Assembly: GCA_027307335.1 (NCBI GenBank)
Contig: DAHUXD010000045.1
Span: forward strand, 1-59,243
Direction of reading: 5' to 3'
From: Acidobacteriota bacterium
Lineage (GTDB): Bacteria; Acidobacteriota; Thermoanaerobaculia; UBA5066; Gp7-AA6
Length of the DNA stretch: 59,243 nucleotides
Within the stretch, counting starts at the first letter, position 1. Every line of letters starts with the position of its first letter. Shown here one piece after another: positions 8,533 through 13,990 of the stretch. A program made the translations under genes and the position numbers. The notes under the pieces were generated by a model. The model ran no database searches. It saw only the letters and a list, made by a program, of their open reading frames with translations, and was not told where the DNA came from.

Positions 8533-9474
8533 CTAGCGGACCAGATCGCTCACCCGGACCAGCTCCACTCCCCTCCTTCCGATCTCCGGCAGGTCCTTCT
8601 CCAGCACGAACAGCGTCACCGGATAGGGGTGGCCGATCGCGATCGCCGCACCGTCCTGGTGCGCCCGGCGGACGAGCTCGTCGAGCTGCGCGCGGATCGC
8701 GTCCTCGCGCGCGACGTCGTCGAGGAAGACACGCCGCGAGGCGGCGCGGACGGACGCCTCCTCGGCGGTCCTCTCGGCGACGGTCGCGTCGGTCGTGCGG
8801 CTGTCGAGGAAGAAGAGGCCGCGCCGCGCGAGCACCCGCGAGACGGCCTTCATCACGCGCGGGTCCGCCGTGGCGGCCGAGCCCATGTGGTTATTGACCC
8901 CGATCGCGCCCGGCACCGTCGCGAGGTCCTCCTCGAGCAGCCGCTCGATTTCGGCGTCCGACTGCGAGCGGAGCACGAGCCCCGGACCGGGCCGCACGCG
9001 CGGATAGCCCTCCGGCTCCATCGGCAGGTGCAGCAGCACCTCGTGGCCGCCGCGGGCGAGCGTTTCCGCCGACGCCGCGCTCCAGCGGAGGTCCGGCAGG
9101 ACGGCGCCGGCCACGGGCTCCTTCCAGCCCGCGATGCGCGCCGCCGGGGCGAGCTCGTTGCCGAGGTCGTCGATGACGATCGCGACGCGCGCCGCGCCGG
9201 CCGCGGGACCCCTGGGCGGGCGCGCCCTCTCGGCGACCGACGTCGGGACGCGGTGCGGGGGCGACGGTGTCGGCCGCGCGCGCGTCGGCACGAATCGCGG
9301 CGACGCGGCGGCGGACGGAGGCGGCGAGGTCGGGGCGGAGCGCGTCTCGAGGTAGAGCGCGACTCCGAGGACGAGCGAAAGAAGGGCGAAGAAGACCGTC
9401 GCCGGCGAAAGGCGGCGGCCTCGGCGGCTCAAGAGGCGCCGGCGCGGGCTAGGCGGCTCGCCGCGCCGGGACAT
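8533..9474 (-). CDS. divergent polysaccharide deacetylase family protein (YibQ-like)
   Basis: 313 residues. An arginine-rich start and one membrane anchor (PATVFFALLSLVLGVALYLE, about 24-43) place the domain in the periplasm. The deacetylase-like domain starts RVAIVIDDLGNE and has HEVLLHLPMEP, GVNNHMGSAATAD, LFFLDSRT and AIAIGHPYP, matching the divergent (DUF610) branch. In Proteobacteria this gene commonly follows envC and an S41 peptidase, exactly as here. Its ATG overlaps the S41 stop by 26 bases. A role in peptidoglycan or polysaccharide remodelling is inferred; the substrate is unknown. Confidence 0.85.
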   Translation of the reverse strand: MSRRGEPPSPRRRLLSRRGRRLSPATVFFALLSLVLGVALYLETRSAPTSPPPSAAASPRFVPTRARPTPSPPHRVPTSVAERARPPRGPAAGAARVAIVIDDLGNELAPAARIAGWKEPVAGAVLPDLRWSAASAETLARGGHEVLLHLPMEPEGYPRVRPGPGLVLRSQSDAEIERLLEEDLATVPGAIGVNNHMGSAATADPRVMKAVSRVLARRGLFFLDSRTTDATVAERTAEEASVRAASRRVFLDDVAREDAIRAQLDELVRRAHQDGAAIAIGHPYPVTLFVLEKDLPEIGRRGVELVRVSDLVR

Positions 9475-10621
9475 CCGCCCGGACGAGCTCGAGACCGCGC
9501 TCCAGGATCAGGTCCCGCTCGCCGGGCTCCCCGGGCAGCACGAGGACGCGCTCGTCCGGCGTGAACCCCTTGCCGCCGAGCACCTTTCCCGAGGGGGAGA
9601 CGTAGCGGCCGACCGTCATGACCAGATTGCCGCCCTCCTGGGTCGGAACGTTCTTCTGGACGATCGCCATGCCGACGGTGGTCTCTCCGACGGTGGTCGA
9701 GCCCGCGCGATCGTGGAGCGCCGCGGCGAAGACTTCCGCCGCGCCGGCCGTCGAGTCGTCCACCAGGATGACGATGCGCCCCTTCCACACCGGCTCGCCC
9801 GTCGTCTCGAGCGGCTTCTCGGGCGCCTTCCGCGAGATGACCGTCGCGACCGGGCCCTTCGCGAGAAAGAGCGCCGCCACCGGCACCGCGTCCGGAACGG
9901 CGCCTCCGATCGATCCGCGGAGATCGATCACGATCTTGTCGATCGAGCGGCGGGACGCCTCCTCGAGCTCCTGGCGCACGGCGGCGGCCGCGGTCGGCGT
10001 GAAGGTCGGGATCGAAAGAATCGCGACGTCGCGCTCCCACTTCGCGCTCGGCGCGGGCGGCTCGAACTTCGCGCGCGGCACCGAGATCTTCAGCTTCTTC
10101 TCGTCGCCGCCGCGGAACACCACGATCTCGCAGGTCGAGCCCTCCGGCCCTTCGAGCGCCGCCTTGATCTTCCACATCGGCGCGTTGCGCATCGTCTGCC
10201 CGTCGATCGAGTCGATGAGGTCGCCGCCCTTGACGCCCGCCTTGTCGGCCGGCGACCCGGGGAGCGGCGCGACGACGAAGGGGTATCCGCCGCGCCGCGC
10301 GAACACGACTCCGGTCGAGGGCGCTCCGGCGGCCTGCTCCGCCTTGTAGGCGGCCATCGAGGAGGCGGGGACGTAGTAGGAGAACGGGTCGAGTGCGTCG
10401 GACATCCCGTCGTACGCGCCCTCGAGCAGCGTCTTCGTATCGGTCGGCTCGACGTAGTTCGTGCGGGTCAGCGAGAAGACCTCGGAGAAAATCGACAGCG
10501 CCTGCGTGGCGGGGTCGCGGCCCGACCCCTCCGGCCCCGACACCGCCCGAAGCGAGGCGAGGGCGCAGAGCGAAACCACCACGAAGAGCACGCGGGAGCG
10601 GTTGGACTTCATCATCGGCAT
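9449..10621 (-). CDS. S41 peptidase (CtpA-like) homologue lacking the catalytic Ser and Lys
   Basis: 390 residues starting MPMMKSNRSR with a signal anchor (VLFVVVSLCALASL). Residues 36-100 are the usual N-terminal helical part and about 100-170 a PDZ domain (PLPGSPADKAGVKGGDLIDSI). The S41 core follows (VAILSIPTF, KIVIDLRGSIGG, IVILVDDSTAGAAEVFAAAL, VGETTVGMAIVQ). Aligned with CtpA/Prc, the nucleophile of the A-S-A-S-E motif is Gly293. The lysine of the GKG motif, 25 residues later, is Met318. The fold is kept, so it is probably a non-catalytic binding or regulatory protein. Second-last gene of the envC operon. Confidence 0.88.
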   Translation of the reverse strand: MPMMKSNRSRVLFVVVSLCALASLRAVSGPEGSGRDPATQALSIFSEVFSLTRTNYVEPTDTKTLLEGAYDGMSDALDPFSYYVPASSMAAYKAEQAAGAPSTGVVFARRGGYPFVVAPLPGSPADKAGVKGGDLIDSIDGQTMRNAPMWKIKAALEGPEGSTCEIVVFRGGDEKKLKISVPRAKFEPPAPSAKWERDVAILSIPTFTPTAAAAVRQELEEASRRSIDKIVIDLRGSIGGAVPDAVPVAALFLAKGPVATVISRKAPEKPLETTGEPVWKGRIVILVDDSTAGAAEVFAAALHDRAGSTTVGETTVGMAIVQKNVPTQEGGNLVMTVGRYVSPSGKVLGGKGFTPDERVLVLPGEPGERDLILERGLELVRADVPARRAA

Positions 10622-10697: not shown

Positions 10698-11864
10698 TCA
10701 TCGGAGCCACGCCACCGGGTCCTGCGCCTTCTGCCGGTCCCGGACCTCGAAGTAGACGCCCGCCTCGTCGCGGCCGGGGCCGAATCCCGCGAGGCCGATC
10801 TCCCCTCCCGCCGGGACGGGGTCCCCGGGATGGACCGACACCGCCTGGAGCCAGGCGTAGAGCGTGAGCATGCCGTCGCCATGGTCGAGGATCACCAGGT
10901 TGCCGTACTCGGCGAGCCACTGCGCGTAGATCGCCTTGCCGCCGTAGACGGCTCGGACCGGCGTCCCGAGCGGCACGGCCACCGCGATCCCGTTCGAGAC
11001 GGTCCAGGCGTCGAACTTGGGATGCCGATGGCGGCCGAAGGTCTCGACGATCGCGCCCTTCGCCGGCCAGTCGAGGACGCCCTTCCACGGCCGGATCCCT
11101 CCGGAGGGACCGACCGGCTCCTCCGCGTCCGACCGGCGCGACAGCGTGTCGAGCAGCCGCTCGAGCCGGGCCGCCTTGTCGGTCAGCGCCGAGACCTCGC
11201 GGCGGCGCGAGGCCATCGCGCTCTGCTCGCTCGCGAGGAGCCGCTCCCGCTGCGTCTTCAGCGACGCGACCCGCGTCTCCTCCTGCCGGCTCCGCACGTA
11301 GAGTCGGTCGATTTCGGCCTTCAGCGCCTGCTCGCGCGCGAGGTTCTCCTGCAGGCGCGTCTCGGCGAACCGGTACTGGACGAGCAGGCGGCCGTCGCGG
11401 CGGGCGAGGTCGTCGAGTCGCTCGATCGAGGCGACGAAGGCGTCGAGATCCTTCGCCTCGAGCAGCACGCGGAAGTAACCGTAGCGGCCGAACCGCTGGA
11501 GGACCCGGGCGCGGGCGAGGAGGAGCTTCCGGTAGCGGGCGGCGGATTCGGCCACCTCGCCGCGCTGACGGGTCACCTCGGCGAGCCGGCGGGCGAAGTC
11601 CTCGCGCGTCGCGGCCACGAGCTCGCCCTCCCGCGTGGCGATCTCCTGGCGGAGCTCGAGGCGCTTCAACTCCTCGGCGAGCGTCGCCTCCTTCTTCTCG
11701 CTCTCGGAGAGCTTGCCCTTGAGCGTCGCGATGCGGCCCTGGAGGCGCGCGAGATCGGCCGCGCGTTCCGAATCGACGGGTGTGACGGGGATCTCGGCGA
11801 GGATCGGGAGAGCGGCCGCGAGGAGAAGCGCGGCGAGAGAACGCCGCGCCCCCGCACGTCTCAC
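10698..11864 (-). CDS. envC: EnvC-like murein hydrolase activator (degenerate LytM)
   Basis: 388 residues. Signal peptide RRSLAALLLAAALPILA, then a long coiled coil (about 30-245) and a C-terminal M23/LytM domain (about 265-385). The zinc ligands expected in active LytM enzymes are lost: SNGIAV replaces the H-x-G-x-D type site and YAWL replaces YxHL, while ILDHGDG remains. EnvC-type proteins use such dead domains to activate amidases at the division septum. The GTG start overlaps the upstream stop as GTGA. A 76-base gap separates it from the S41 homologue. Confidence 0.88.
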   Translation of the reverse strand: MRRAGARRSLAALLLAAALPILAEIPVTPVDSERAADLARLQGRIATLKGKLSESEKKEATLAEELKRLELRQEIATREGELVAATREDFARRLAEVTRQRGEVAESAARYRKLLLARARVLQRFGRYGYFRVLLEAKDLDAFVASIERLDDLARRDGRLLVQYRFAETRLQENLAREQALKAEIDRLYVRSRQEETRVASLKTQRERLLASEQSAMASRRREVSALTDKAARLERLLDTLSRRSDAEEPVGPSGGIRPWKGVLDWPAKGAIVETFGRHRHPKFDAWTVSNGIAVAVPLGTPVRAVYGGKAIYAQWLAEYGNLVILDHGDGMLTLYAWLQAVSVHPGDPVPAGGEIGLAGFGPGRDEAGVYFEVRDRQKAQDPVAWLR

Positions 11865-13990
11865 CAGAACGACTTCCCCGCCGCGTCGGCGGATGGAGGC
11901 GCTCCGACGAGCGCGCGCACCGACGCCGTCACGTCCGCGATGGCGAGCGCGCGGTCGGAGGGAATCGGCCGCGAGGCGAAGAGGATGCCCTTGACGAGCT
12001 CCGGATCGAGCGAGCAGTGGTCGCCGCTCCAGACGTCGCGATTGTCCTCGAACACGTTCTCCGTCGGCACGCCGAGCGAGGACTGCCAGGAGACGCGGTA
12101 TCCGGGCCGGTTCGTCACGATCAGGTCGGGGATCAGGCGCGGATCGAAGCGGCGGTAGACGTCCTCGCGCTTGAAGACGCGCGACACCGCCTTCTCGCCG
12201 TTCTTCGGATCCACGAGCCCCGTCAGCCGGGACGCGATCTCGTTGCGCAGCGCCTCGTAGTCGGCGCCCGGCGTCACGATGCCTCCGGTCTCGCGGCCCG
12301 CGAGGTTCACGTAGATGTCGCCGAGGCCCATCCCGTAGGCCCTCGACTTCGTCCAGTCGACCGCCTCCCAGAACTGCCCCCGCGAGAAGAGCGCCTCGAG
12401 GTTCTGCCGGCGCGCGCTTCCCTTCAGGACGAGGTAGCCGTTCTCGACGAGCCACGAGTTGTAGTTGACCGAGCGCCGCCATGTGGCGAAGCCGTGGTCG
12501 GACAGCACGATCAGGACGTCCTCCGGCTTCAGCGCCTTCGCGGTCTCGCCGACGATCTCGTCCATCGACCGATACGCCTTCTCGACGGCGTCGCCGTACT
12601 TCGCGGCGAGGGCGGCGTCGTACGCGGGGTGCTCGCGGTCGCGGAAGCGCCAGAAGACGTGGGCGACGCGGTCCGGGAACTCGAAGTAGTGGAACAGGAG
12701 CTTCTCGCCACCGCCGAGGAGGCCCGCGAGCATGCGCCGCTCCTGCTCCTCGGTCTTCCGCACGTCCTCCAGGAACGCCTCCTCCGAGAGCGTCGCCGAC
12801 TGGATCGACCAGGTGTCGATGCCCCAGCCCATCGTCTTGTAGCGGCCGAATCGGGCCACGAGCTCGCGGGCGAACTCCGGCGGCGACGAGATCTCAAATC
12901 CCGGCGGCAGGTGGTCCGGGTCGAACTGGATCGGCGAGAGGTACAGGCCGATCTCCGGCTGGATCGATGCGAGGCGCAGCCGCGCGTAGCCGTGCACGGA
13001 GATCAGCGGGTTGACGCGGAAGACGAGCGGGACCCAGTCGCTCCACTGTCCCGGAGCGAGCTCCACGCGGGTGCCCGGCACCTGCACCGCGAGCTTGTCG
13101 CGCGCATCGGTGACCGACAGCGTCATCGGCAGGTCGATCGTGCCGGCGCGGCCGAACGCCCGCCCCGGCGGACCGACGATCTTCGTCGTCTGGCTGCCGG
13201 TGTTCGACTCCAGTCGCGTGATCTCGACCGAGAAGTCGTTGCCCTCGCGCGGCGCGAAGAAGGGGTCGGACGTGTAGTAGGCGGGCCGGCCGATCCGGCC
13301 CGAGAGATCCGGCACCCCGAGGCCCGACAGCATCCGGCCCCCGTCGAACGCCTCGGGCGGAAACGTGACCGGCATGCGCACGACGGTGGCCGGCCGCGCG
13401 CCGGCCTCCGCCCAGAAGACCGGCCCGCGGCGGTTGTTGCGCACCCAGGGACGCTCGGCGGGCAGCCAGGCCTTCGCGGCCGCGAACGCGCCCGCCGCGG
13501 CGGCGATGGCCGCGACGGCGAGGACGATGCCTGCGGCGCGCCGGCGCCGCCAGAGGAGGAGCACGGCCGGTATCCCGAGCACGGCCGCGGCGGCCGCCGC
13601 GAAGATCGGAGGGTTGTTCGTCCCGAAGAGGAAGGGGACCTGGAGCTCCTCGGCCACGGCGAAGGTCGGGATCCGGTTCGCGGGGTCGCGCTTCAAGAAG
13701 TCGAAGATCTCGTGGCCGCCGGGGTCGAGTCCGGTCGAGAACGTCGCCCACGACACCGGCGTCTGCGCCGGCACGGTCGGCGTCAGGGGCGCATAGCCGC
13801 CGCGCTTCTGGAGCGCGGCCAGATTCGGCAGCTCACCGCGCGCGATCATGTCCTCGACGATGTGGGCGTCCACGCCGTCGAACCCGAGGATCACGATCCG
13901 TCCCGGAGCCGGCGGGGCGGCGGCCGGCGCCGCGAACAGACGCGCGGCGTTTACGAGCAGCGCGGTCAGCGCCGCGGCCAGGAATTTCAT
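11861..13990 (-). CDS. alkaline phosphatase-superfamily phosphodiesterase, membrane/secreted
   Basis: 709 residues. Signal peptide (MKFLAAALTALLVNAARLFA), then the type I phosphodiesterase fold: ILGFDGVDAHIVEDM (metal site), QTPVSWATFSTG with the likely nucleophile Thr, FHYFEFPDRVAHVFW, LSDHGFA and a late GDH. Two hydrophobic helices are inserted at about 130-175, unusual for a soluble enzyme. It heads the operon with envC (GTGA overlap). In Proteobacteria this slot is often gpmI, another member of the same superfamily, but this is not a phosphoglycerate mutase. Substrate unknown. Confidence 0.82.
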   Translation of the reverse strand: MKFLAAALTALLVNAARLFAAPAAAPPAPGRIVILGFDGVDAHIVEDMIARGELPNLAALQKRGGYAPLTPTVPAQTPVSWATFSTGLDPGGHEIFDFLKRDPANRIPTFAVAEELQVPFLFGTNNPPIFAAAAAAVLGIPAVLLLWRRRRAAGIVLAVAAIAAAAGAFAAAKAWLPAERPWVRNNRRGPVFWAEAGARPATVVRMPVTFPPEAFDGGRMLSGLGVPDLSGRIGRPAYYTSDPFFAPREGNDFSVEITRLESNTGSQTTKIVGPPGRAFGRAGTIDLPMTLSVTDARDKLAVQVPGTRVELAPGQWSDWVPLVFRVNPLISVHGYARLRLASIQPEIGLYLSPIQFDPDHLPPGFEISSPPEFARELVARFGRYKTMGWGIDTWSIQSATLSEEAFLEDVRKTEEQERRMLAGLLGGGEKLLFHYFEFPDRVAHVFWRFRDREHPAYDAALAAKYGDAVEKAYRSMDEIVGETAKALKPEDVLIVLSDHGFATWRRSVNYNSWLVENGYLVLKGSARRQNLEALFSRGQFWEAVDWTKSRAYGMGLGDIYVNLAGRETGGIVTPGADYEALRNEIASRLTGLVDPKNGEKAVSRVFKREDVYRRFDPRLIPDLIVTNRPGYRVSWQSSLGVPTENVFEDNRDVWSGDHCSLDPELVKGILFASRPIPSDRALAIADVTASVRALVGAPPSADAAGKSFW

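Follow-up and report, generated by a model that had tools for sequence, protein, structure and literature searches.

A short CtpA homologue without the catalytic Ser and Lys, encoded beside an EnvC-like protein, as a putative pseudoprotease of Acidobacteriota

The window analyzed here, a stretch of 59,243 nt from an Acidobacteriota bacterium, encodes a short S41 peptidase homologue that has lost the nucleophilic Ser and the general-base Lys of CtpA together with several activation residues, carries a conserved C-terminal -AA tail and is encoded between an EnvC-like protein and a YibQ/SddA-type deacetylase (Table 1). The substitution is an ancient, phylum-wide state rather than a local one. As the catalytic residues are lost and selection continues, the protein is probably a non-cutting regulator beside EnvC. 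The role that we consider probable is that of a dead, CtpA-derived and PDZ-bearing regulator or scaffold of the EnvC-amidase septal module, which would communicate via C-terminal tails. Such genes match S41 models and would be annotated as peptidase or CtpA, and the literature searched contained no paper linking Acidobacteria to S41 proteins, EnvC or pseudoproteases. If the proposed role is correct, an entire phylum employs an inactive CtpA next to EnvC, and the structural role of CtpA in the division operon is separated from its proteolysis.

Table 1. Positions of the short S41 gene, its diagnostic codons and its neighbors in the window
Feature	Position	Strand	Basis
Short S41 homologue, putative pseudoprotease, 390 aa	9449..10621	minus (10621 to 9449)	ORF, profile, AF2/Foldseek
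Domain order of this protein: N-terminal hydrophobic helix, cap, PDZ, protease core			
Gly293 codon, position of the nucleophilic Ser	9743..9745	minus	alignment
Met318 codon (ATG), position of the general-base Lys	9668..9670	minus	alignment
Arg-Arg-Ala-Ala C-terminus, the conserved [KR]xAA tail as it occurs in this protein	9452..9463	minus	
EnvC-like degenerate LytM/M23 protein	10698..11876 (start approximate)	minus	profiles, alignment
YibQ/SddA-type divergent polysaccharide deacetylase	8533..9474	minus	PF04748, 248 bits
PF01663 phosphodiesterase-like protein, upstream of EnvC	11861..13990	minus	homologue in 44 fetched loci

In a profile search, the protein scored 114 bits against Pfam PF03572 and also matched PDZ models (PDZ_6, 39 bits), which places it in the S41/CTP fold family, and its score against TIGR00225 (prc) was 177.2 bits, below the curated cut-off of 218.6. 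Translation of the plus strand over the same interval yields no S41 protein. About 320 residues align with Pseudomonas aeruginosa CtpA, Helicobacter pylori CtpA and Bacillus subtilis CtpB. In the alignment with P. aeruginosa CtpA, STAGAAE of the window protein falls on SASAAE and GMAIVQ on GKGSVQ, and the spacing between Gly293 and Met318 is exactly 25, the same as in the active paralogue of this genome (SASASE...GKG). A preliminary description of this DNA had read a Ser-to-Gly change at residue 293 and a Lys-to-Met change 25 residues further on; both are borne out by the alignment, and the minus strand is added here. The third catalytic residue is retained as Gln322. Because the two defining residues are absent, the protein does not belong to the active CTP peptidases. 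The Gly/Met pair recurs in two genomes of the same family, whose proteins show 62-63% identity to that of the window. A frameshift or sequencing error is ruled out by the intact ORF, the retention of the pair in relatives and the agreement of the class- and phylum-wide survey described below. A nearby alternative Ser/Lys pair, which the preliminary description had named as an observation that would speak against it, was sought in the family alignment and none was found to be conserved. The invariant or near-invariant polar positions are Asp78, Asp134, Asp233, Arg235, Glu296, Thr291, Thr315 and Ser17, with no Lys or His among them, and Ser17 sits in the N-terminal hydrophobic helix. With both catalytic residues replaced and no conserved substitute pair, the sequence supports the view that the S41 protein is probably non-catalytic.

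The AlphaFold2 model of the window protein, built on 42 window- and locus-derived sequences, has a pLDDT of 89.9, and CtpA and CtpB structures rank first in a Foldseek search (E 1e-30), with B. subtilis CtpB among the closest resting-state structures. By target, its TM-scores are about 0.75-0.82 for H. pylori and P. aeruginosa chains in resting states and about 0.50-0.55 for active ones; a control model of the active paralogue (22 sequences, pLDDT 81) gave about 0.72-0.78 for active and about 0.46-0.51 for resting chains. With one model each and different underlying alignments, this pattern fits a protein fold that would be held in the resting state. The tail is undocked in the model, where residues 388-390 have a pLDDT below 50.

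Several residues that couple peptide binding by the PDZ domain to activation are lost, and therefore the earlier statement that the PDZ domain and the fold are intact stands for the fold only. The cap His is found in 23 of 23 long CtpA proteins; in the short clade, Phe predominates at this position and the residues listed include no His. The hinge position, which is Phe in 20 and Tyr in 3 of the same 23 proteins, has D, R, P, E, K or another residue in most short proteins. At the PDZ sensor position, long CtpA has Arg or Lys, and the short proteins most often have Ala. The corresponding residues of the window protein are Phe80, Ala100 and Glu157. Glu296 is invariant and Arg235 almost invariant in the short clade. 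The cap His and hinge Phe matter for activation of H. pylori CtpA (PMC12749690), and substrate-sensing and activation residues were also shown to matter in CtpB, where R168A weakens ligand binding 3-5 fold (PMC3808539). Since Glu157 replaces the sensor Arg, the PDZ domain of the window protein may itself bind tails poorly.

The survey of short S41 orthologues covered 100 loci of the same class, 40 loci from about 25 further families of the phylum and 20 more. Named records among the relatives are from Acidobacteriota, several of them from Thermoanaerobaculia or gp7, and one genome of the same family is gp7 AA6. Outside two sister families, coded f4 and f5, Gly occupies the Ser position in 137 of 147 sampled copies (121 of 127 plus 16 of 20). 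Lys was found at position 318 in none of these 147 copies, which carry M, H, Y, W, L, D, R, A, E and others there. Replacement of Ser by Gly and of Lys by other residues is nearly phylum-wide outside f4 and f5. The Alphaproteobacteria homologues examined, among them one of Sinorhizobium between envC and the deacetylase gene, keep Ser and Lys and branch outside the acidobacterial clade. In 14 pairs of related species, dN/dS of the short S41 gene is 0.10-0.27, which indicates purifying selection. Judged by its sequence, the window protein therefore appears to be a pseudoprotease, i.e., a protease homologue that has lost its catalytic residues and is kept by selection. Decay specific to this gene is ruled out by the dN/dS values and the distribution. 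A decaying, functionless CtpA relic would likewise lack catalysis and several activation residues, but this explanation is hardly tenable, as it is largely refuted by the selection data, the intact ORFs in nearly all families, the conserved tail and the conserved operon position. It is likewise very improbable that the protein is still a peptidase, acting by another mechanism or with an active site that is assembled only in a complex. Glu296, Arg235, Gln322 and the fold remain, and certain S41 proteins, those of the tricorn type, rely on another triad, yet the nucleophile is missing in nearly all copies outside f4 and f5, no replacement Ser, Thr or Cys with a Lys or His is conserved, and activation residues are lost as well.

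The host genome (4.37 Mb, 65 contigs) encodes two further S41 proteins. The longer CtpA paralogue has an intact site, and Ser and Lys are present in all 23 long CtpA copies examined, so that the cell should still possess one active CtpA. In the third S41 protein (L003 1405-3264), a TASAGE motif with Ser is accompanied by GMASG, with Met at the Lys position; this is possibly a tricorn-like S41 protein with a different triad.

The history of the catalytic dyad involves f4, which includes gp7 AA8, AA10 and AA11. Ser and Lys are found at the catalytic positions of f4 proteins (L041, L044, L047-L051, L056, L017 and L226), and the family holds G/K, G/R, A/K and S/R members beside these, so that the dyad is not strictly conserved even here. 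One explanation is that the short clade descends from a still active CtpA and that many parallel losses of catalysis left f4 as its sole keeper. All f4 Ser codons are TCN, as in nearly all active CtpA genes checked; isolated Ser in two other families are encoded by AGC, one step from the Gly codon GGC, and Asn237 is kept in f4 and f5 and lost in most others. Against this, at least 5-7 independent losses would be needed, nearly all to Gly, and f4 is nested. In trees built without the catalytic columns, support was 100/100 for the short clade, 100/99 for the class, 100/100 for f4 with f5 and 100/99 for the f4 subclade that holds every Ser of the tree, and an AU test rejected a single clade of all short proteins outside f4 and f5 (p=0.0009). 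A two-state model also improved when gain was allowed (2dlnL 5.4-7.1 across Lys, Ser and dyad; 6.3 for Ser and 7.1 for the dyad), and the cap His and hinge Phe are gone in f4 as well. We give parallel loss about an even chance. The opposite course is compatible with the tree, the AU test and the two-state model: the acidobacterial clade would descend from a pseudoprotease, on which f4 (gp7-AA8-like) later reconstructed the complete Ser-Lys-Gln site. The TCN codons and Asn237 speak for retention instead; such a regain is a serious possibility that falls somewhat short of probable. If it occurred, a pseudoenzyme encoded in a cell-division operon has given rise to an enzyme again. With G/K, G/R, A/K, S/R and S/K side by side, f4 constitutes a natural series in which the loss or regain of catalysis can be studied. 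That f4 acquired its dyad by gene conversion from the active paralogue is unlikely in view of the sequences around the dyad (TASGAEIF...YGKSIVQ versus SASASEIV...WGKGLVQ). The two isolated Ser occur in L277 (f69) and L279 (f58), which both have Arg at the Lys position and a family mate without Ser.

An EnvC gene lies directly upstream of the short S41 gene in 95 of 140 loci, and YibQ/SddA is often found downstream. The order envC-ctpA-yibQ is known from P. aeruginosa (PMC12569750) and was also seen in Sinorhizobium. In the EnvC-like protein of the window, the zinc ligands are replaced by N, V, W and Y. The NCBIfam EnvC model is its best NCBIfam match, with 77.5 bits against a curated cut-off of 270 bits, and the protein is therefore named EnvC-like. 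The M23 zinc ligands are lost in most EnvC relatives sampled here, and their loss is known from E. coli EnvC. The preliminary description had placed an EnvC-like protein with lost zinc ligands and a divergent deacetylase next to the S41 protein, so that the operon would hold at least two enzyme-derived, probably non-catalytic proteins at the cell wall. The loss of zinc ligands is confirmed but is usual for the EnvC family, and hence it is no second oddity of the operon; the deacetylase keeps all four metal ligands (D102, D103, H149 and H196). These correspond to the ligands that E. coli SddA/YibQ needs for its activity (PMC12440217), and the YibQ/SddA-type protein is therefore probably an active enzyme. 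The host genome also codes for FtsX and two Amidase_3 proteins. The corresponding operon of E. coli contains gpmM, which like the PF01663 gene belongs to the alkaline phosphatase superfamily.

In the proposed mechanism, the gene encodes a secreted or membrane-anchored pseudoprotease with a predicted periplasmic location and lies where other bacteria encode an active CtpA, flanked by EnvC and the septal deacetylase SddA/YibQ. The protein would not cut but would serve the septum-splitting EnvC-amidase module as a regulatory or scaffold subunit, in the resting-state CtpA fold and with a PDZ domain that binds C-terminal tails. Its own -[KR]xAA tail would be a PDZ ligand, either of a neighboring copy, resulting in self-assembly, or of the active long CtpA, resulting in recruitment or turnover. 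The sequences show the loss of catalytic and activation residues, the conservation, the operon position and the tail; inactivity, location, partners and direction of control are inferred. In CtpB, peptide binding to the PDZ domain flips the conformation even without the catalytic Ser (PMC3808539), and therefore such a switch needs no catalysis. Some lineages have the protein but no adjacent EnvC gene (f13 genus g48, f25 and f37), so that EnvC may not be the only or main partner. The pseudoprotease of f13 genus g48 (L086-L106), with G/Y or G/H at the catalytic positions, is encoded away from envC and yibQ and has a Glu/Pro-rich tail without -AA.

C-termini were read in the window and in L037-L197 and L277-L296. 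Among 139 complete short S41 proteins, 89 end in Ala-Ala, 10 in Ala-Ser, seven in Val-Ala and four in Gly-Ala. The tail is often KKAA, with AA mostly preceded by a variable linker and one or two basic residues. As background, -AA ends 4 of 589 other genes of the same loci, and among the commonest endings listed it accounts for 0 of 97 EnvC and 0 of 66 YibQ proteins. The Ala codons vary (GCC, GCG, GCT and GCA), and the constraint therefore acts on the protein. The tail is unlikely to be a by-product of the yibQ start or its ribosome-binding site, given this variation and the persistence of the tail without adjacent yibQ. The link to envC is strong in raw counts, as 92 of 95 loci that have EnvC directly upstream carry the tail, compared with 18 of the 45 others; after correction for relatedness it is not significant, and the only five phylogenetically independent contrasts show nothing. 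Unlike the window protein, the homologues examined from Rhodospirillales, Sinorhizobium, Shinella and Methylobacterium do not end in -AA. The conserved -[KR]xAA tail of the short S41 clade is newly described here and provides a testable tail rule for PDZ pairing in the envelope.

By analogy, the conserved -AA tail is of the type bound by PDZ domains of tail-specific proteases, as a Val-Pro-Ala tail binds the CtpB PDZ domain (PMC3808539) and WVAAA is a tail type degraded by Tsp (PMC5758756). In the leading alternative, the pseudoprotease might be mainly a regulated substrate or pseudosubstrate of the active long CtpA, with the -AA tail as degron or as inhibitory ligand of its PDZ domain, and the abundance of the pseudoprotease or the occupancy of its tail would then set CtpA activity. 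The resemblance of the -AA tails to WVAAA, the binding of a small C-terminal Ala by the CtpB PDZ domain, the intact site of all 23 long CtpA sequences and the reported possibility of E. coli SddA being cleaved by Prc as a substrate (PMC12569750) are consistent with such a relationship. The residues ahead of AA, however, are usually charged (KK, RK, KA), whereas known Tsp tags are nonpolar there, and we regard a role mainly as substrate as rather unlikely.

The closest known systems of the regulator or scaffold that we propose include P. aeruginosa CtpA of the envC-ctpA-PA5135 operon, which shares fold, domain order and the place between EnvC and a YibQ/SddA-type deacetylase (PMC12569750). Fold and domain order are also the same in H. 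pylori CtpA. Both proteins possess Ser-Lys-Gln and the activating residues, whereas Ser and Lys are missing from the window protein, as are the cap His, the hinge Phe and the PDZ Arg. B. subtilis CtpB resembles it in its resting-state structure and PDZ-gated switch (PMC3808539) but is an active sporulation protease. Retinol binding protein 3 (IRBP), matched with E 2.6e-13 (9frx), shares the S41 fold. It represents a non-proteolytic role of this fold, but it is eukaryotic, consists of ligand-binding repeats and is unrelated to cell-wall proteins. EnvC, a degenerate LytM amidase activator, is a neighboring case within the same module of an enzyme fold that serves regulation, although its fold is that of a metallopeptidase and not S41. 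The pseudoproteases iRhom and CspC are inactive protease homologues with regulatory roles in other protease families and pathways. We know of no EnvC linkage of CtpB.

Individual members of the short clade deviate further. In L034 and L036 (f3; same genomes as L061 and L063), the nucleophile helix is separated from the former Lys strand by insertions that reach about 48 residues. One genome (G090) encodes a second, diverged short S41 protein (L124), which has Arg and Asp at the catalytic positions and groups with sequences from outside the class.
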